Shown: piece after piece, positions 1,130 to 26,632 of the stretch
Numbering within the stretch: the stretch's first letter is position 1
Layout of the letters: each line of letters opens with the position of its first letter
Notes under the pieces: generated by a model
Database searches by the model: none
The model's input: only the letters and a program-made list of their open reading frames with translations
Told to the model about the DNA's origin: nothing
Program-made: the position numbers and the translations under genes
Source: Planctomycetota bacterium
Lineage (GTDB): Bacteria > Planctomycetota > Planctomycetia > Gemmatales > Gemmataceae
Reading direction: 5' to 3'
DNA: 51,672 nucleotides
Assembly (NCBI GenBank): GCA_016191165.1
Contig: JACPPF010000167.1
Coordinates: 1-51,672 of the forward strand

Positions 1130-1733
1130 TCACTTTTTCCTGTGCCGCCGCCCCTTCTCATAATCGCCCAGCCTCTGGTCGAATTCGATGAACATCTCCG
1201 GGGTTTCCAGGGCCTGGGCGAATTCGTCCACGTGTTGGCGAACGTAGGCGACATCCAGTTTGGTCGCACGATCCAACCGGGCTTCGATGTCACCCTTGTC
1301 CACCACTCGGCGAGCGACTGCCTTCAGGACGATCAAATCCTCCGTGCTTGCGACCGGGACAGAAAGGCGGCCGACCTTGACCTTGGTGGCTCGCTTTAAC
1401 GCCTGGTATTCCAGGGGCAGCGAACCGAGCGATAGGTCGACCTCCACGCCGGTGTTTTCGTGGACCATCAGCAGGACGCGACTCCGTTTGACGAAATCAA
1501 GCACGTTGGGAATGCGGGGTTGAAACGAAAGGGCAGCGCCTTGCTCGATGAAATCGGGAATGGCATCCTCGTTGAGAAAATTGATGGCATCGACATCGCG
1601 CGTCGTGCGCGCCCGGCCGCGGAAAGCGATCGCCAGGCCGCCGATGATCACGCCTTTCACCCTCGCCTTGCGCCACCAGCGAAGCAAGTCCGGCAGCACG
1701 CCCCGGGGGGAGTTCGGGTTTCCTTTTAGCCAC
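1130..1733 (-). CDS. AbiEii/AbiGii-like nucleotidyltransferase-fold protein, apparently frameshifted near its start
   Basis: The intact frame runs from a GTG at 1699 (189 residues) to 1130. It carries the nucleotidyltransferase core GGLAIAFRGRARTTRDVDAI (GG at 20-21, DVD at 35-37) and a third acidic strand GVEVDLS (D88), as in MNT/AbiEii-type proteins that often act as toxins. A better start is GTG 1733, which overlaps the stop of the upstream gene (GTGGCTAA) and would encode MAKRKPELPPG, but it runs into the core only if one base is removed from the run at 1701-1710 (C4G6 on the plus strand). This is either a real frameshift, a sequencing error in a homopolymer, or the shorter GTG 1699 start is used. 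The partner gene immediately upstream suggests a two-gene toxin-antitoxin-like module. Function is inferred. Confidence 0.7.
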
Positions 1734-2049
1734 CGTACCCTTTCAGTTTTTGCCAGCGCCGACGTACTACCGCGATTTCCTCGGGCGAATGGACGTGCCA
1801 GTTCATGGCCTGGGCCAGGTCCATCAGATAAGCGAATTGCCTCAGGCATTCCTCGGGTGTCCGGGGGCGCAGCTGGCCTGATTCAAATCCATCGATTTTA
1901 GGGTAACAAACAATCCGCGAGCCGCCGGGTTTGTCCCGGCGGGGAACCAAGGCGGATCGGGATGCACCGCCGGGACAAGCCCGGCGGCTCGCTGTGACCT
2001 TCACTTGAACCAGGCCGCGCAGTTCCTCGATTTCGAGTTCGTTGACCAC
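1726..2049 (-). CDS. Small partner protein of the nucleotidyltransferase, carrying an in-frame palindromic insertion
   Basis: The open frame from GTG 2049 gives 107 residues. The C-terminal part (RTPEECLRQFAYLMDLAQ ... EEIAVVRRRWQKLKGYGG) looks like a small helical protein of the kind found next to nucleotidyltransferase genes in planctomycetes. The middle 50 codons are not native: they come from a palindromic element at 1873-2016 flanked by GCGCAG duplications; removing 150 bp rejoins ...EIEELR to PRTPEECLRQF in frame. There is also a likely upstream start, ATG 2099 (MPKPKK...), that joins this frame only if the A8 run at 2081-2088 had nine A's. The gene therefore looks eroded, although the frame has survived the insertion. 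It overlaps the downstream gene by 8 bp, so the two would be coupled. Confidence 0.55.
   Translation of the reverse strand: MVNELEIEELRGLVQVKVTASRRACPGGASRSALVPRRDKPGGSRIVCYPKIDGFESGQLRPRTPEECLRQFAYLMDLAQAMNWHVHSPEEIAVVRRRWQKLKGYGG
1867..2022. repeat. MITE-like palindromic element with 6-bp flanking duplication
   Basis: GCGCAG occurs at 1867-1872 and 2017-2022. Between them, inverted termini CCTGATTCAA (1877-1886) and TTGAACCAGG (2005-2014) enclose a long central hairpin whose arms read GAGCCGCCGGGTTTGTCCC and, on the other side, GGGACAAGCCCGGCGGCTC. A second copy with the same termini and interior lies at 34951-35084; shorter relatives of the hairpin occur at 29807-29885 and 24323-24370. 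There is no coding capacity for a transposase, so it would be moved in trans if it is mobile. Confidence 0.8.
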
Positions 2050-2182
2050 CTGGTAGCGATCGACGTAGGCCTGGTGTTCGTTTTTTTTGGTTTTGGCATG
2101 TGGAAAACTTCGCTTACGCTTCAGGCTTGGATGAATGCTGTTAGGAGCCGCGCGACAATTAGGGCTCGATTTGGGAATTGTT

Positions 2183-2242
2183 ACGAGCCGCGATCGTCAG
2201 GGAGCGGTCGGTGAAAACCGCTCCCTGACGGTCGCGGCTCGT
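2183..2242. repeat. 26-bp-stem palindrome downstream of the sulfatase gene
   Basis: ACGAGCCGCGATCGTCAGGG (2183 onward, arm to 2208) is mirrored by CCCTGACGGTCGCGGCTCGT (arm 2217-2242) with one mismatch and an 8-base loop. It starts 20 bp past the sulfatase stop codon, so it could end that transcript, but there is no T run, and the length and symmetry fit a REP-type dispersed element better than a classical terminator. Confidence 0.8.
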
Positions 2243-2261
2243 TAGCGGTAAACGCGTGGGC

Positions 2262-3659
2262 TTACTTATTGTAGGCCGACTTCTCCTCGCGATACAGGAT
2301 GGTCCAGGGATCGTTGGTGGCGGTTTGCCAGGCACGCAGGCGTTGGCGCAGGTCGGCAAGCGTGCCGGCGTGTTCCGGCAAGGCCGCCAGGTTTTTCAAC
2401 TCGTTCGGGTCGCTGGTCAGGTCGTAAAGTTCTTCCCTGGGGCGTTGCAAGAAGGATGCGACCGAACGTGCGCCCATCATCTTCAGTTTGTTGATGCGCA
2501 CGTGTTGCCAGCTTGGCGAGGCCCACAGGTCGGAGGCGAATGGGTATTCTTTCTTATGGTCGAGATTGACGATCAGCTTGTATTTCCGGGTGATGATGGT
2601 CCGCATCGGGTAGTACATGGTGATCTCGTGAAACTGATGCGACCCAAAGACCGCGTCCCAACCTTTGGGATTATGGCCATTCAGGACCTGCAGGATCGAC
2701 GTGCCGGAGAGCTTGGTTTGCTTGTAGGTCGGCACTTTGCCGCCGGCCCAGTCGAGGATCGTCGGCGCGAGGTCGATGTAGCTGACGAGCGCGTCACTGG
2801 TGTTTCCTTTGGGCAATCCCGGGCCGGCGATGAGCATCGGTAGGTGGATGCCCGCGTTGTAGAGGGTGGTCTTGGCGCCGGGGAAAGGGATGCCGTTGTC
2901 GCTGATGAAGATGATCAGCGTGTCGTCCAGGACGCCGGCCGCTCGCAGTTCTTCGATGATGAGGCCGATGCCGCGATCCATGCGCGTGATCGCTTGATAA
3001 TACTCGGCCAGGTCCTTGCGGACGGCGTCGCAGTCGACGAGGTGATAGGGGACGATGACTTTTTTCGGGTCGTACTTGACTTCCTTGGGATCCTTGGCGA
3101 ATGGCTCGTTGCCGAAACCCTTGGCGGCGCGGTGCGGGTCCTGATAGCCGACGACGAGAAAGAACGGCTTCTTGCCGCTGGCCTTGAGGAAGTCGTGGGC
3201 GTGCTGGGCGAAGCGGTTCATGTCGCGGCCATTGGTCTTGAGCATCAGGCGGTCGAACTGGAACGACGCATTTGGCCCGGTATGGAACTTGCCGATCAGC
3301 CCGGTGAAATAGCCGAGTTGTCGCAAGAGGTTGGGCAGGCCGCGCACCCAGGGGTAGCACTCCTGTTTGTGGGTGGCATGTTGCAAACCGTATTGGCCAT
3401 TCTGGTGAGTGTGCAGCCCGGTCAAGATGGTCGCGCGGCTGGGGCTGCACGACGCAACGGCGGCATAGGCGCGCGTGAAGCGGGTGCCGCGCTTGGCGAG
3501 CGCGTCGAGATTGGGTGAGTGGATGACCCGATCGCCGTAGCAGCCCAGTTGCATGCCGAGGTCGTCGGCGATGATGAGGACGACGTTCTTCGGTTTGGTC
3601 TGGGCGAAGGCCGAGGTCGGGATCAGGGCGAGAATCAGAATGGGGAGGAATCGGCGCAT
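2262..3659 (-). CDS. Secreted sulfatase of the SGSH (heparan N-sulfatase) type
   Basis: 465 residues from ATG 3659, chosen because it opens a clean signal peptide (MRRFLPILILALIPTSAFAQ); the frame is open further upstream but without a plausible leader. The alkaline-phosphatase-fold sulfatase features are present: metal-binding IIADDLG (D32, D33), the formylglycine motif CSPSR (C71) followed by TILTGLHTHQNGQYGLQ, and SDNGIPFPGAKTTLYNAG later. The stretch after CSPSR and the SDNGIPFP segment resemble N-sulfoglucosamine sulfohydrolase rather than aryl-sulfatases, so a sulfated-glycan substrate is likely. The enzyme would act outside the cytoplasm after maturation by a formylglycine-generating enzyme, not seen in this window. 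Transcribed divergently from the Uma2 gene at 3792. Confidence 0.9.
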   Translation of the reverse strand: MRRFLPILILALIPTSAFAQTKPKNVVLIIADDLGMQLGCYGDRVIHSPNLDALAKRGTRFTRAYAAVASCSPSRATILTGLHTHQNGQYGLQHATHKQECYPWVRGLPNLLRQLGYFTGLIGKFHTGPNASFQFDRLMLKTNGRDMNRFAQHAHDFLKASGKKPFFLVVGYQDPHRAAKGFGNEPFAKDPKEVKYDPKKVIVPYHLVDCDAVRKDLAEYYQAITRMDRGIGLIIEELRAAGVLDDTLIIFISDNGIPFPGAKTTLYNAGIHLPMLIAGPGLPKGNTSDALVSYIDLAPTILDWAGGKVPTYKQTKLSGTSILQVLNGHNPKGWDAVFGSHQFHEITMYYPMRTIITRKYKLIVNLDHKKEYPFASDLWASPSWQHVRINKLKMMGARSVASFLQRPREELYDLTSDPNELKNLAALPEHAGTLADLRQRLRAWQTATNDPWTILYREEKSAYNK

Positions 3660-5379: not shown

Positions 5380-7116
5380 CTAACTCGGCGGCGGCACGAT
5401 TTGCAGCGGCGGCGGCATGACCGGAGCGGACATCGGCAACGGCATGGGAATCGGGGGCGGCGCCACTTGCGGCGGCACCGGCAGGACGGGGCCGTCCGAC
5501 GCCACCGTGCGGATGCCACGCAGGACCACGCGCGGGCGGGCCGGGTCGTCGAACTGGACCGGTTCGAGCGTATTGGCAATGGCCTCGTTCCCGGCGGCGT
5601 CCTTCGCGAGCAGGCGGACATGCGTTTGCGTGCCGATCGACGTCGGCGGCGTCCAGCGATGCTGACCCTGCGCTTTCAGACCCTTCGCGATCGGCAGCCA
5701 CGGCCCCTGGGGCGTGGCGCCGTAGTAAAGCTCGACAGCCCCGTCAGTCAGATTCTTGTCCTGGACATTCCAGTCGATGTGAACCACGGTCGAACCGTTC
5801 TCGGTGGCGCAGCGAACGCCGGTGATCTGCGCGCTGGGCTTGGTCGTATCCACCTCGATCCAGCCCTGGGGCGCATCGCCCGCCTTGGGCGCCGCGGCAA
5901 TCGCGCCGCGGCCGTTGCTTGCCAGCAACGTGACGCCGAACAGGCCATCGCCGGGGAGTTGCACCTCCAGCGGGTTCTTGCTTTGCGTGTGTTCGACGAG
6001 TTTCTGCCAGTTCTGGCCCTGATCGCGCGTGATCCAGACCTCGACTCTGCCGATGCCGGAGAAACCAGTGTTTTCGACCTGGTAATCGAGCAACACTTTG
6101 GTCGTGTTAACCAGTTGGCGCTTGGCGGGCGCGGCCACGGGGGGCGCCGGCTTGGAGACCTGGTGGCGCGGGCTGACGATGTGGGTCGGTTCCTTGGCGG
6201 GGGCGATGGCCCAGTGGGGGCCGTCCGCGCCGTTGGGGCGGAAATTGGTTTGCTCGTGGGTGTTGACGGCAGGTTTCGTTTCCTTCCTGGGCACCCGCAC
6301 GTTGCCTGGCTCAAGGAGTGGCACGGGATCGAGATTCTTGGGCAACAGGTCGGGCGTGGTCTTGGTCTGGTGCATCGGCGCCGCCGGCGCGGTCTTGGTG
6401 GCCGTCGCCGTCTTCATGCCGTTGAGGTGCTGCTCGCGGAAGCCCCGGTTGCCCGCAAGGTCCGACGCCGAGGCGCGAATCAAGCCAGTGCAAACTGCTT
6501 CGTTCGGGATGCAGTAAACGTTAGCGCGGCCCGGAACAGCCAGCATGTCCCGAAACACCTTGTCGCCCCCCTGGAAGGTGATCCTGGCCTTGCCATTGTC
6601 CAGATGGGAATCGCTGATGTCGCACTGGATCAGCGTGCCGATTGGCGTTTCGCCGAGGTTGGTCAACTCGATGCGCGGCGCCTGCGTGTCGATGATGACA
6701 ATGAGGCCGGCCGGTTCGTTGCGAATGTCGGCCGGGTAGCTGCGGCCTTGCTTGTTCACGGTAACCATGGCGAACCAGTATTCCCCGTCGCGCGGCACCT
6801 GGAAGGTGAACGAATCCTGCGCAGCGCCCACCTTGTCGCGCAGCGCCCACGGCGCGTCGGGACTTTCCTTGACGAAGAGCTGAATCTCCTGAACCGATTG
6901 GCGGGTCTTGGCATCCATTTCGATCGGCAGACGGATGACATTTTTGTTGAGATAGTTCCGCTGCACCATCGGCGTTGGCTGGCTGGTGATGGTAGAGCCT
7001 GGCTGCGTTTGGGCAAACGCCGGCTGCGTGCCGGTCCAGGCGAGCAAGGCGCTCGCCAACGTGCCGCCGCCAAGGACTGCCTTGCGTGCCCAGCGTTTCA
7101 TGTGACGCATGGTCAT
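5380..7116 (-). CDS. Large secreted protein with Ig/FN3-like repeats, function unknown
   Basis: 578 residues from ATG 7116, chosen for AAGGGGA upstream and a signal peptide (basic MRHMKRWARK, then a hydrophobic stretch ending PAFAQ). Several stretches read like beta-sandwich repeats: IQLFVKESPDAPWALRDKV with 'DGEYWFAMVTVNKQGR', a related block VEVWITRDQGQNWQKLVEHT with 'GDGLFGVTLLASNGRG', and a third 'VELYYGATPQGPWLPIAKG' with 'HVRLLAKDAAGNEA'. The middle (about 240-330) is Pro/Thr/Lys rich and looks like a linker. The C-terminus is a Pro-rich tail of PPP repeats. This three-domain layout occurs in secreted planctomycete proteins of unknown role; a structural or adhesive role is a guess. Confidence 0.8.
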   Translation of the reverse strand: MTMRHMKRWARKAVLGGGTLASALLAWTGTQPAFAQTQPGSTITSQPTPMVQRNYLNKNVIRLPIEMDAKTRQSVQEIQLFVKESPDAPWALRDKVGAAQDSFTFQVPRDGEYWFAMVTVNKQGRSYPADIRNEPAGLIVIIDTQAPRIELTNLGETPIGTLIQCDISDSHLDNGKARITFQGGDKVFRDMLAVPGRANVYCIPNEAVCTGLIRASASDLAGNRGFREQHLNGMKTATATKTAPAAPMHQTKTTPDLLPKNLDPVPLLEPGNVRVPRKETKPAVNTHEQTNFRPNGADGPHWAIAPAKEPTHIVSPRHQVSKPAPPVAAPAKRQLVNTTKVLLDYQVENTGFSGIGRVEVWITRDQGQNWQKLVEHTQSKNPLEVQLPGDGLFGVTLLASNGRGAIAAAPKAGDAPQGWIEVDTTKPSAQITGVRCATENGSTVVHIDWNVQDKNLTDGAVELYYGATPQGPWLPIAKGLKAQGQHRWTPPTSIGTQTHVRLLAKDAAGNEAIANTLEPVQFDDPARPRVVLRGIRTVASDGPVLPVPPQVAPPPIPMPLPMSAPVMPPPLQIVPPPS

Positions 7117-7319
7117 GAGGGATCCCCTTCCCCTGATGAATGGTGACCGCGCCCGCCTCCCCCTTTGAGCCGGGCTGCGTGATATTTCCTGCATTCGAGG
7201 GGAATTCAATAACCGAAAAGACGCATCTGTCAAGGCCGATTGAGGTCCGCGCGAGATTCGCCCTCGCCACGGGCGAGGGGCCAAACTTGGATAATAATTA
7301 AATTAATCTGAAATTTGAC

Positions 7320-7348
7320 TTGAATATTGTTAATAACAACATTAATAT
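7320..7348 (+). promoter_or_regulatory. Promoter candidate in an AT-rich island before the DUF2089 gene
   Basis: TTGAAT (7320-7325) and TAATAT (7343-7348) are spaced by 17 bp inside a markedly AT-rich stretch (7288-7356) that stands out from the GC-rich surroundings. The -10 box is only 9 bp before the ATG at 7358 and no Shine-Dalgarno sequence precedes that ATG, so the mRNA may be nearly leaderless. An overlapping TATAAT at 7346-7351 is a second option. Confidence 0.5.
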
Positions 7349-7357
7349 AATTGAATC

Positions 7358-7696
7358 ATGGTTGATCACCGTCGCTGGCTGGACTTGCTCGAGGAGGAGG
7401 ACCTCGCGTTTCTCAAACGCTTCGTTCTCGCGTCGGGATCGCTCAAGGAGTTGGCCGAGGCGTATGGCATCTCGTATCCGACGGTGCGTCTACGGCTCGA
7501 CCGGCTGATTGCGAAGATTCAGGTATTCGACAGCCAGCAAGCGATGAGCGAATTCGAGCGCAGCGTGCGCGCCTTGCACGCGGATGGGCGGATCGATCAG
7601 GCGACTCTCAAACAAATCCTGAAAGTTTATCGCGAAGACAAGGAGAAACACCATGACGCAAAAACTCGCACTGGCTCTGCTGCTGCTGGCGTTTAG
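7358..7696 (+). CDS. DUF2089-type helix-turn-helix regulator
   Basis: 112 residues. LDLLEEEDLAFLKRFVLASG leads into a helix-turn-helix, SLKELAEAYGISYPTVRLRL (about residues 28-47), then LDRLIAKIQ and a C-terminal helical part with DGRIDQATLKQILKVYRED, matching the DUF2089 family of small DNA-binding proteins. Its 3' end overlaps the membrane-protein gene by 44 bp in another frame, so the two are co-transcribed. In other genomes DUF2089 proteins sit beside membrane or 'SHOCT'-like proteins and presumably regulate their own operon. The ATG has no ribosome binding site and follows a -10-like box closely. Confidence 0.85.
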   Translation: MVDHRRWLDLLEEEDLAFLKRFVLASGSLKELAEAYGISYPTVRLRLDRLIAKIQVFDSQQAMSEFERSVRALHADGRIDQATLKQILKVYREDKEKHHDAKTRTGSAAAGV

Positions 7697-8072
7697 CGCG
7701 CCGGCCGCCCTGGCTCAGGATGTACCGCAGCCCGGCGCTCCGCAACCCTGGTGGAGCGAGCAAGCGGCAGGCTGGCTGGGCGGAATCGTCGGAGGCTCGC
7801 TCGGCCTGCTCGGCGCCGCCTTCGGCATCTGCGCCGGACTCGGCGTGGCTCGGCGGGTCGTACAATTCAGCGCTCTCGCCGGCGCGTTGGTCGGCGTGAT
7901 CATCCTGTTGATAGGGGTCGGCGCTCTCGCATCCGGACAGCCGTATCACGTTTATTACCCGGCACTCCTGATCGGCGGCATCATGGCCTTCGTCTTCGGG
8001 TTGAATTACCCGATCATCAAACGCCGCAATGAGCAGATGGAATTGCAGAAGATGACCGCGATGGATGCGTGA
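7653..8072 (+). CDS. Small membrane protein encoded with the DUF2089 regulator
   Basis: 139 residues from ATG 7653 with AAGGAGA upstream. A signal peptide (MTQKLALALLLLAFSAPAALAQ) is followed by three glycine- and alanine-rich hydrophobic segments, about 38-62, 72-92 and 102-120, and a short charged tail KRRNEQMELQKMTAMDA. No family was recognised. The 44-bp overlap with the regulator gene suggests translational coupling and a functional link, perhaps with the regulator sensing or controlling the level of this protein. The ROK-family gene follows after 14 bp but has its own -10-like box. Confidence 0.75.
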   Translation: MTQKLALALLLLAFSAPAALAQDVPQPGAPQPWWSEQAAGWLGGIVGGSLGLLGAAFGICAGLGVARRVVQFSALAGALVGVIILLIGVGALASGQPYHVYYPALLIGGIMAFVFGLNYPIIKRRNEQMELQKMTAMDA

Positions 8073-8074
8073 AG

Positions 8075-8080
8075 TATAAT
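8075..8080 (+). promoter_or_regulatory. -10-like TATAAT directly before the ROK gene
   Basis: A perfect TATAAT lies 6 bp before the ATG at 8087. No good -35 box is seen at 16-18 bp. If used, transcription would start at or within the start codon, producing a leaderless mRNA; otherwise the gene is read through from upstream. Confidence 0.3.
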
Positions 8081-8086
8081 GCCGCC

Positions 8087-8989
8087 ATGTACCTTGGCAT
8101 CGAAATCGGCGGCACCAAACTTCAACTCGGCCTCGGCGATGGCGGGGGCGTCATCCATGCCCTGTGGCGTGGGACTGTCGTACCCGGCGATGGCGCGGAC
8201 GGGATTCGCAGGCAAATCACTGCCGCAATTGCAGAGCTTCTTGCGGGCGCTAAACGAGATCGGGCGGAACTCAAGGGCGTCGGTATCGGCTTCGGCGGCC
8301 CGGTCGATGATGCCACGCGCACGGTCATCAAATCCCATCAAATCGAAGGCTGGGACGCCTTCCCTCTCGCCGACTGGATCGCCGAGCTCGTCGGCGTCCC
8401 CGCAGTGCTCGGCAACGATGCCGACGTCGCGGGGTTGGCAGAAGCCCTTTTCGGCGCCGGCCAAGGACTCTCGCCCATCTTCTACATCACCATCGGCTCC
8501 GGGATCGGCGGTGGGCTGATTATCAATGGCGAGATCTATCGCGGATGTGGAGTCGGTGCCGCGGAAATCGGCCATCTCTGGGTCAACTGTGATGGAATTC
8601 GCGAACCGCTTGAGTTTTTTTCCTCGGGATGGGGTATGACTCATCAAATGCGGTATCAATCCGGGAAACCGAATTGTTCAGCCGCGGAAATTGCTCGTTT
8701 GGCAACCCGCGGCGACGAGAATTCTCAAGTGGTTCTCGATCGCGCCGTCGACCAACTGGCGGAGGCGATCTGCCACGTCATTGCGTTGCTTTGTCCACGC
8801 CGCATCGTCATCGGCGGCGGCGTTTCGTTAATGGGGGAGAAGTTGCTGTTCGGACCGTTGCGTCAAAAGGTTGCCGAGCGCGTCTTCAGACCGTTCGCCG
8901 GTTTTTATGACATTGTGCACGCTGACTTGGGCGAGGAGGTCGTCGTCCACGGGGCGCTTGCGCTGGCACGCCAACGGCTTTTGCGATAG
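8087..8989 (+). CDS. ROK family sugar kinase/regulator-like protein
   Basis: 300 residues from ATG 8087; a GTG at 8069 in frame overlaps the preceding stop and is less likely. ROK/actin-like ATPase features are in order: phosphate-1 GIEIGGTKLQLGL (4-16), GVGIGFGGPVDD, GNDADVAGLAEALFGAG with the catalytic Asp, phosphate-2 ITIGSGIGGGLIINGEIYRG, and the C-terminal IVIGGGVS adenosine motif. There is no HTH domain, so it is a kinase-type rather than a repressor-type member. The usual zinc motif CxCGxxGCxE is not present; the equivalent region reads IGHLWVNCDGIREPLEFF. Substrate unknown, perhaps glucose or an N-acetyl hexosamine. The protein is expected in the cytoplasm. Confidence 0.88.
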   Translation: MYLGIEIGGTKLQLGLGDGGGVIHALWRGTVVPGDGADGIRRQITAAIAELLAGAKRDRAELKGVGIGFGGPVDDATRTVIKSHQIEGWDAFPLADWIAELVGVPAVLGNDADVAGLAEALFGAGQGLSPIFYITIGSGIGGGLIINGEIYRGCGVGAAEIGHLWVNCDGIREPLEFFSSGWGMTHQMRYQSGKPNCSAAEIARLATRGDENSQVVLDRAVDQLAEAICHVIALLCPRRIVIGGGVSLMGEKLLFGPLRQKVAERVFRPFAGFYDIVHADLGEEVVVHGALALARQRLLR

Positions 8990-24477: not shown

Positions 24478-25155
24478 ATGGCAACCGTGACCGCATCCGC
24501 GCCGCCGCTCGTCAATGGTGATAGGCTATCACGCGATGAATTCCTGCGCCGGTGGAGCGAGCACCCTGAAACCAAACGGGCCGAGCTCATTGGTGGAATC
24601 GTTTACCTGGCCTCACCGGTAACTTTGGAACATGGAGATTCCGAGGGTGATCTGGGTTTGCTTCTCGGAACCTACGCTGCCCACACTCCGGGCGTCAAAC
24701 ATGCACACAACACCACGATTCTCATGGATGAAGATGCCCCGCAGCCGGACGTTCATCTTCGTATTCTGCCGGAATACGGCGGCGTTACCCGAAAAAAGGG
24801 AAAATTCCTCTGGGGTTCACCCGAATTGACTTCGGAGGTCTGCCTGACCAGCGCGGTCTACGATCTGCACCAGAAGCTCGAATTGTACGAGGAAGCCGGC
24901 GTCCAGGAATACCTGGCCGTCTTGATATATGAACGGGAGATCCGCTGGCACACGCTCACCAAGAAGGGATACCAGGCGATGGCGCCGGCTAGCGACAACC
25001 TATGGAAATCGAAAATCTTCCCCGGCCTTTGGCTCGATGGTCAGGCCTTGCTTGCACATGACTCTGGCAAGATCCTCGCTACGCTTCAAAAAGGCTTGCA
25101 ATCGCTGGAGCATGCTGATTTCGTGAAAAAACTCGCCAAGAAAAAAGGAAAATGA
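24478..25155 (+). CDS. Uma2 family (DUF820) putative endonuclease, copy 3
   Basis: 225 residues from ATG 24478. The pattern follows the family: SRDEFLRRWSEHPETKRAELIGGIVYLASPVTLEHG, then QPDVHLRI (catalytic Asp), WGSPELTSEVCLTSAVYDLHQKLELYEEAGVQEYLAV with the SEV glutamate, and IFPGLWLD near the end. The usual 'VEV' strand is SEV here and the C-terminal tail is longer, with KKLAKKKGK. The stop is 3 bp before the next ATG (25159), so it is probably co-transcribed with the UGA-interrupted thioredoxin-like gene. Role unknown. Confidence 0.88.
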   Translation: MATVTASAPPLVNGDRLSRDEFLRRWSEHPETKRAELIGGIVYLASPVTLEHGDSEGDLGLLLGTYAAHTPGVKHAHNTTILMDEDAPQPDVHLRILPEYGGVTRKKGKFLWGSPELTSEVCLTSAVYDLHQKLELYEEAGVQEYLAVLIYEREIRWHTLTKKGYQAMAPASDNLWKSKIFPGLWLDGQALLAHDSGKILATLQKGLQSLEHADFVKKLAKKKGK

Positions 25156-25158
25156 ACC

Positions 25159-26412
25159 ATGTTAAAACTCGTTGTTCCCACCTGGGCAGGCCTGATGCTC
25201 GCGGTCTTTGCGTTACACGCCGCCGAGCCAATCAAGCCGGCGCAGTTTGAAAAACTGCACGCGCTGATCAAGCCGCAGGCGCATGAAGAGAAGTACATGC
25301 AAATCCCCTGGCTGACCAGTCTTTGGGAAGCCAGGCAGCAGGCGGCCAAGGAGGGCAAGCCGATACTGCTTTGGGAAATGGACGGTCACCCGCTCGGCTG
25401 CGTCTGAAACAACGGTGTCGTGGGCCGTGAGCTCACCTTTGCCGATCCGCGCATCATTCGACTGGTCAAAGAGAACTTCGTCGCCGTCGCCGCTGACGAT
25501 TGGTTCCAACGTCGCCGAAAGGACGCTGAGGGCGATTTCTTCCGCAAGGTTGCCAATCAGGGGCCGCGCAAGGGGCAGGGGGGAAGCACCCGGCAGGGCA
25601 TCTACACCCTTACCGCGGACGGCAAGCTGTTGCAGTATCGCAACCATCAAGACGCGGACATCATGCACGGCTTCCTGAAAACCTCCCTGGCGGCGTGGAA
25701 TCGGCTGCCCGCCGTCACGCGCGCGAAGGGCAGCGTGGAGGTTGCCCCGTTGAAAGCGATCGATCCGCGTTTCGCGCCCACGCTGCCCAAAGGTGCAGTT
25801 ATCGTAAACGTTCACGCTCGCATCCTAGACCGGCAGGATGATTTCTACTGTCACGGAACCTGCCGATTCCCCGGTGGGCAACGCGCGTCGCACGACCACC
25901 TGTGGATTCGTGCCGAGGAGTTGCGTGCCCTGATGCCTGCCAACCCACGTCAGGGCCAGGAGATCGCGATTCCCGCCAAGCTGATCTACCGCATTGCCCG
26001 GTATCACCTCGTTGACAACACGCGCGGCGAACCGCCGATGTGGACGCGGCGCGACGTGCGGAAGGCCGACATGAAGCTCATGATCGAGAGCATTGATAAG
26101 AGGGAGGTCCGACTCAAACTAATGGGATCATTCCTGTTGGCAACGGACGCGGATGTGAAGTTGGCCAAGCGGGGTTATGACGTCGCGCTCCTCGGCGACC
26201 TTCGCTACGATCCGGAGCGGAAGAAGCTGACGCGATTTGACATTGTCGCCCTCGGCGGGCACTGGGGCCAGGGAACGTATACCGGCGGCGCCCGACTTGG
26301 CCGCATGCCGTTCGGCGTGGCCTTCGAGTTGGCCGACCCAAACCGCCCGGCTGACCGTGTGCCACCCCAGTTCATCCGCGAGGGCGGCGACTACTACAAC
26401 GCAGAGCGATAA
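25159..26412 (+). CDS. Thioredoxin-like exported protein with in-frame UGA: selenoprotein candidate or nonsense-split gene
   Basis: The frame is continuous over 418 codons except for a TGA at 25405-25407 (codon 83). Before it: a signal peptide (MLKLVVPTWAGLMLAVFALHAAE) and a thioredoxin-fold-like stretch, AARQQ-type helix WEARQQAAKEGKPILLWEMDG ending HPLGCV; after it: NNGVVGRELTFADPRIIRLVKENFVAVAAD, the next helix and strand of such a fold. The site reads GCV-UGA-N, where a redox-active cysteine or selenocysteine would be expected in a thioredoxin-like loop. The later part (about 110-417) is beta-rich and of unknown function. If the UGA is a stop, the product is 82 residues and the rest could only start at GTG 25420 with no leader. 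A cysteine-to-stop mutation is the alternative. Confidence 0.7.
25405..25407 (+). other. In-frame UGA at codon 83
   Basis: TGC GTC TGA AAC AAC in frame. Starting seven bases after the UGA, GGTG (25414-25417) can pair with CACC (25434-25437) around a GC-rich core, leaving room for a bacterial SECIS-like stem-loop; I cannot fold it, so this is only permissive. Confidence 0.55.
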
Positions 26413-26426
26413 CGAAATGTTGCCAC

Positions 26427-26632
26427 GCCGGGCTATCCCCGGCAAGTTTCTTACAGACAGATGCGCAAATAGCGCAACCTTTACCTTTCTGGTTCCCAAA
26501 CTCTGTTTGGGAACCCACGAAGGCGAAACTCTGTTACGCGAGATAAATGCCGCATCGAAACGGAGTTTCCCAACGTGCGTTCCCAACCAGAGTTTGGGAA
26601 CGAGGGCCGGGCTATCCCCGGCAAGGTTCTTA
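26427..26632. repeat. Composite palindrome island flanked by 26-bp direct repeats
   Basis: CGGGCTATCCCCGGCAAG with a shared TTCTTA tail occurs near 26429 and again near 26608 in the same orientation. Between them lie GGTTCCCAAACTCTGTTTGG (from 26491), its inverted relative ending at 26603, and a third pair GCGAAACTCTGTTACGCG against AAACGGAGTTTCCC. Each inner unit is a hairpin, so the island could fold into several. It fills the gap between the UGA-split gene and the SMP-30 gene. Confidence 0.7.

Follow-up and report, generated by a model that had tools for sequence, protein, structure and literature searches.

An in-frame UGA, very probably read as selenocysteine, in a two-domain thioredoxin-fold protein family of Planctomycetota and Verrucomicrobiota

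DsbH, the C-terminal domain of DsbD, and AGR2/AGR3 are Cys proteins with domains of the Thioredoxin_7 and Thioredox_DsbH type, and they have the same fold as residues 46-185 of the family described here. This family differs from them in two ways: it carries a selenocysteine (Sec) preceded by a Cys, and a further domain follows at the C-terminus. Thioredoxin-fold selenoproteins are also a known kind among bacteria. The VPGUxxT proteins of types 1 and 2 (NF041382 and NF041383) are likewise thioredoxin-like (seleno)proteins and appear as OS_HP5 in a 2026 inventory of 119 prokaryotic selenoprotein families (PMC13188914). The Trx7/PDZ selenoprotein NF041199, with a CxxU motif, is a further Trx_7-type selenoprotein and is known from metagenomes (PMC13188914), while Sec.1 (CxU) and Sec.2 (UxC) are thioredoxin-like selenoproteins of PF13192. 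In planctomycetes, selenoproteins were already reported in 2016 in a paper whose S9 table gives the candidates of two planctomycetes (PMC4807772). Numerous Cys homologues exist for almost all selenoproteins, as the deep-Sep paper states in its introduction (PMC12013277).

The gene studied here (Table 1) lies in a window of 51,672 nucleotides, by which we mean the whole stretch of DNA analysed (contig JACPPF010000167.1 of assembly GCA_016191165.1, a Planctomycetota bacterium of the Gemmataceae). Because the inventory gives only motif and domain accession, we compared the window family with its entries by these and by NCBIfam models, and no entry was matched by motif, domain accession, or NCBIfam model (PMC13188914). 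Among the 47 members scanned against NCBIfam, apparently none reached the cut-off of any model; five families were matched, all weakly (best E 0.00086). The VPGUxxT models aligned weakly with the thioredoxin region around Sec in 12 of these 47 members at E ≤0.1 (best 0.00086), and the matches stop short of the C-terminal domain of the window family. For NF041383, the best score among the ten members shown in detail was 18 bits against a cut-off of 275, and the window protein had no match; the Sec motif is VPGUxxT in NF041382 and NF041383 but CxUNNG in the window family. NF041199 differs as well, since it is matched by none of the 47 members, the Pfam search gave no PDZ match, and the family motif is CxU or CU rather than CxxU. 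While the CxU spacing of Cys and Sec is common to Sec.1 and the window family, PF13192 is matched by no family member, and the inventory gives no sign of a two-domain architecture for Sec.1 or Sec.2. Judging from open PMC papers, the family is apparently undescribed, although a member may already stand in the S9 table of PMC4807772. What looks new is the family as such, together with its second domain and a Sec that is nearly obligate.

The plus strand of the window holds a single frame at 25159-26412 (translation M...WEMDGHPLGCV*NNGVVGRE...AER*), which closes with TAA. Its sole internal stop is the TGA at codon 83, behind which 334 codons run otherwise uninterrupted. The initial annotation had described this long continuation and the codons GCV-UGA-NNGVV, and the translation of the window bears out both. 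When the gene is compared with its closest relative (L010), dN/dS is 0.116 before the TGA and 0.126 after it; the two values are about equal, so the part behind the TGA is evidently coding and under purifying selection. No further disabling mutations were found downstream. The upstream neighbour, a Uma2-family (Uma2-like) gene at 24478-25155, ends with an ordinary TGA at 25153-25155, and three bases separate this TGA from the ATG of the selenoprotein gene. Thus, TGA also works as a stop in the source genome.

Table 1. Features of the candidate selenoprotein gene, in window coordinates
Feature	Position	Strand	Basis or remark
Candidate selenoprotein gene	25159..26412	+	417 codons plus stop, Sec = codon 83; open frame with one TGA; same TGA in homologues
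Signal-peptide-like leader MLKLVVPTWAGLMLAVFALHAA	25159..25224	+	Read from translation
Thioredoxin-fold domain, residues 46-185	25294..25713	+	AF2 model and VIA-align fold matches
Cys81, partner Cys of the CxU motif	25399..25401	+	Cys before Sec in 88/88 Sec members
UGA codon, predicted to be read as Sec (U83)	25405..25407	+	TGA in 88/93 and 114/114 listed homologues; U83 directly before helix 84-91
SECIS apical hairpin	25420..25436	+	GTGGGC / loop CGTGA / GCTCAC; consensus fold, covariation, synonymous-codon constraint
Possible extended stem of the window's own SECIS	25413..25444 (25413-25417 with 25440-25444)	+	Single-sequence minimum-energy fold
C-terminal beta-rich domain, residues 205-417	25771..26409	+	AF2 model of this domain by itself, pLDDT 91.8

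As the query against 397 genomes of the same class, we used the translation that continues past the TGA. Relatives occur in 104 of them, about a quarter of the sampled class, and nearly all of the full-length matches listed contain exactly one TGA. Among the 93 aligned members, 88 have TGA at codon 83 and two have Cys; the remaining three have Asp, Ser, and Arg, respectively. The first two of these three share one genome (G288) and are sisters within a Sec clade, the Arg member (G009) clusters with Sec members, and of the two Cys forms, one comes from a genome that lacks any tRNA-Sec above the family cut-off (G255). We also scanned GTDB species genomes for exact matches to DG(H/N)PLGC-x-[any codon]-NN-(G/V), a pattern that leaves codon 83 free. 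This returned at least 115 stretches; the free codon is TGA in 114, all encoding homologues of the window protein and partly overlapping with the 93-member alignment, and Cys occurs at the free codon in none of the 114 homologous matches listed. We excluded the exception (L186, with AGC at the free codon) as not fitting the family. In 80 titles of GTDB matches, Planctomycetota and Verrucomicrobiota are frequent, while Kiritimatiellia and Armatimonadetes each have a single mention; a few further labels may be wrong, since titles of metagenome-assembled genomes can err. The initial annotation had offered a recent mutation of a Cys codon to TGA as an alternative to Sec, and we reject it because the TGA is conserved across Planctomycetota and Verrucomicrobiota.

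The source genome contains at least three copies of the family. Two further members with an in-frame UGA lie in one region of it (L039, C30:97000-107000), at about 1375-2886 (+) and 6685-8706 (-); their motifs are GVCU and AAGCU, and a restriction-methylase-like gene stands between the two. Cultured carriers include Limnoglobus roseus PX52 (Gemmataceae) and strain K23_9. In three members (L120, L150, and L187), the frame closes early after the Sec codon, giving 237, 182, and 119 residues, respectively, through truncation, a frameshift, or a further in-frame TGA. One relative (G309:C356:2237-3430) has two in-frame TGA codons inside the match, and it could be a double-Sec member or a broken copy.

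To describe the RNA behind the TGA, we used a gapless alignment of 107 distinct 48-nt stretches that run from the TGA onward. From this alignment alone and unprompted, RNAalifold proposed a hairpin (columns 17-21 with 27-31), which starts 12 nt past the TGA and whose loop starts 18 nt past it. When columns 16-21 are paired with 27-32, 91.6% of cells are paired; shuffles reach 78.5%, and sliding the pairing gives no more than 42.5%. Two-sided changes occur at all six hairpin pairs, the covariation score is 0.503 against 0.266, and the stems GTGGGC/GCTCAC, TCGAC/GTCGA, and TCGAT/ATCGA are examples of compensatory change. Synonymous codon bias peaks exactly over the hairpin, at codons +5 to +9 (Leu +5, Asp +6, Arg +7, and Ser +9). 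The Arg +7 codon (n = 113) is CGT in 85, AGG in 24, and CGG in four sequences, yet never CGC, the commonest Arg codon elsewhere in the family genes. For CGT, the excess over a background of 0.16 has p 1e-44, although the codon-bias p values overstate independence because the sequences are related, and we give more weight to the compensatory stems. The CGT codon gives the loop CGTGN and the AGG codon the loop AGGTT; in both, the apical loop has a G close to its start, as a bacterial SECIS requires. Folded as a single sequence, the window's own hairpin exceeds shuffles only slightly in stability (z -1.11), so we rely on covariation and codon bias rather than on this weak folding energy. The SECIS proposed in the initial annotation was a GGTG/CACC pairing at the expected distance behind the UGA. 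Its place holds, but the stem does not: by consensus fold, covariation, and the fold of the window, GGTG/CACC is not the conserved pairing, and the conserved hairpin is GTGGGC-CGTGA-GCTCAC.

The initial annotation had tied its reading to Sec machinery, and the source genome indeed has selA, selB, and a tRNA-Sec with a UCA anticodon. No selD match above the cut-off was found in its roughly 95% complete draft; each of the six congeners searched does have selD, so the absence is most simply read as an assembly gap. Within the class, tRNA-Sec occurs in 67 of 77 strong carriers of the family versus 123 of 320 other genomes (Fisher p 2e-15, uncorrected for phylogeny). The ten carriers without a clear tRNA-Sec comprise nine with a UGA copy in draft assemblies and, as the tenth, the Cys form of G255. 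At five loci (L113, L121, L147, L155, and L175), 1.4-2.2 kb separate the family gene from one that encodes a pyridine nucleotide-disulfide oxidoreductase/SelD fusion, and selA follows the fusion gene. In three of the fusion-selA loci selB comes next after selA, and another locus has the fusion only (L191). Against selD (cut-off 125), the L175 fusion reaches 247 bits, and against the 'fusion_not_SelD' model (cut-off 700) it reaches 465. We looked for tRNA-Sec beside the selD-selA-selB loci and did not find it there, and no widely common conserved neighbour names a substrate, the only conserved neighbours being selD-selA-selB in Rhodopirellula-type loci. As a separate observation, several planctomycete selD genes (e.g., L110 and L111) have one in-frame TGA of their own, and SelD is likely itself a selenoprotein in these planctomycetes.

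AlphaFold2 (AF2), with Sec modelled as Cys, gave a model of the protein with pLDDT 92.9 and pTM 0.90. Residues 1-20 have low confidence; hydrophobic leaders are visible in relatives, and we infer that the product is exported. The best VIA-align fold match of residues 46-185 is 3f9u (Z 13.6, 117 residues aligned, rmsd 2.2), and further matches are AGR3 (3ph9, Z 12.2), DsbH (2ju5, Z 11.3), the C-terminal domain of DsbD (2fwf, Z 10.3), and AGR2. By sequence, the Pfam search showed weak similarity of the family to the Thioredoxin_7 and DsbH families, with the window protein at 15.2 bits to Thioredoxin_7 (PF13899), below the gathering score of 27. In thioredoxins, the attacking Cys sits directly before the active-site helix. 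The model puts U83 directly before helix 84-91, which would correspond to this site, in agreement with the earlier placement of the UGA at the redox position of a thioredoxin-like protein. The distance from Cys to Sec in the 88 Sec members is two residues in 67, one in 20, and three in one.

The C-terminal domain has the invariant residues D246, W249, D286, RGE (R289-G290-E291), and W295. A fold search of the PDB with this domain found no chain at Z ≥8; the top match, at Z 6.5, was to small outer-membrane beta barrels and may reflect just a common arrangement. Pfam gave no convincing match for the domain, and when the family profile was run against PDB chains, the whole protein had no match and the C-terminal domain one at chance level. 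The domain probably binds a substrate or partner.

Altogether, UGA conservation, SECIS covariation, the presence of Sec machinery, the selection downstream, the ever-present Cys, and the fold prediction strongly suggest that the UGA at 25405-25407 is read as selenocysteine, to which we assign a probability of about 0.95. The central claim of the initial annotation is thus supported, and much more firmly than it had been put, by TGA conservation, hairpin covariation, and the presence of selA, selB, and tRNA-Sec. A real stop, due to a recent nonsense mutation, a sequencing error, or decay to a pseudogene, would agree with the way in which a standard gene caller would split the frame at the TGA, and a GTG at 25420 could open a second ORF. 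However, the same TGA stands in 88 and in 114 homologues of two partly overlapping samples, from many genera and at least two phyla, purifying selection acts downstream of it, and the RNA right behind it is constrained, so we regard a real stop as extremely improbable. Equally improbable is an altered genetic code with UGA as a general sense codon of the lineage: while this would account for a TGA that is read through in the selenoprotein gene, the neighbouring Uma2 gene stops at TGA, members nearly always have a single TGA at one codon, and the tRNA with the UCA anticodon is tRNA-Sec. Pseudogene, sequencing error, and altered code are ruled out by TGA conservation, purifying selection, and the Uma2 stop. 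Regulated termination with readthrough by near-cognate Trp, Arg, or Cys would yield a short and a long product; readthrough does take place at UGA as well, and the short product would be an exported peptide of 82 residues. We nevertheless consider this very unlikely, as it leaves unexplained the co-occurrence with tRNA-Sec (p 2e-15), the proximity of selD-selA-selB, the SECIS-like hairpin with its G-containing loop, and the ever-present Cys partner.

If the UGA is read as selenocysteine, the mRNA hairpin at 25420-25436 would recruit SelB and Sec-tRNA to it, and the exported product would act outside the cytoplasm. There, Sec83 would take the attacking position of the thioredoxin fold and Cys81 would be the resolving residue, with a Cys81-Sec83 selenenylsulfide as the resting or an intermediate state, and the protein would work as a thiol/disulfide-type (selenenylsulfide) oxidoreductase. 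We consider this Sec83/Cys81 redox mechanism, with its chemistry drawn from fold and motif, to be likely. Alternatively, the Sec of a genuine selenoprotein may be non-catalytic, with Cys81 and Sec83 binding a metal or thiophilic ligand (Hg, As, Cu) in exported detoxification or sensing. CU and CxU motifs are also found in known metal-related selenoproteins (PMC13188914), and the C-terminal domain is without a known relative; however, a Sec directly before the helix of a thioredoxin fold occupies the classical catalytic site, and the weak sequence similarity points to the Thioredoxin_7 and DsbH families, which makes metal binding unlikely. Returning to the redox reading, we lean slightly toward the broader view that these proteins form a widespread two-domain selenoenzyme family of PVC bacteria, with Sec close to obligatory and with a new extracytoplasmic selenium-dependent redox activity.

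The family suggests that PVC bacteria have a selenium-dependent redox function outside the cytoplasm, and one may ask why Cys is hardly ever accepted at codon 83. Selenoprotein discovery often rests on Sec/Cys pairs, a rule that the family breaks in the genomes sampled; with almost no Cys forms, it would be missed by finders that use such pairs, and gene callers would split its genes at the in-frame UGA. Cultured carriers such as Limnoglobus roseus make the Sec reading testable.

Downstream of the gene, the intergenic stretch 26427-26632 contains two kinds of repeat: a direct one of 27 nt (GCCGGGCTATCCCCGGCAAG...) and an inverted pair of 31 nt whose stems are GTTCCCAAAC...GTTTGGGAAC. These repeats are possibly a small mobile or REP-like element.
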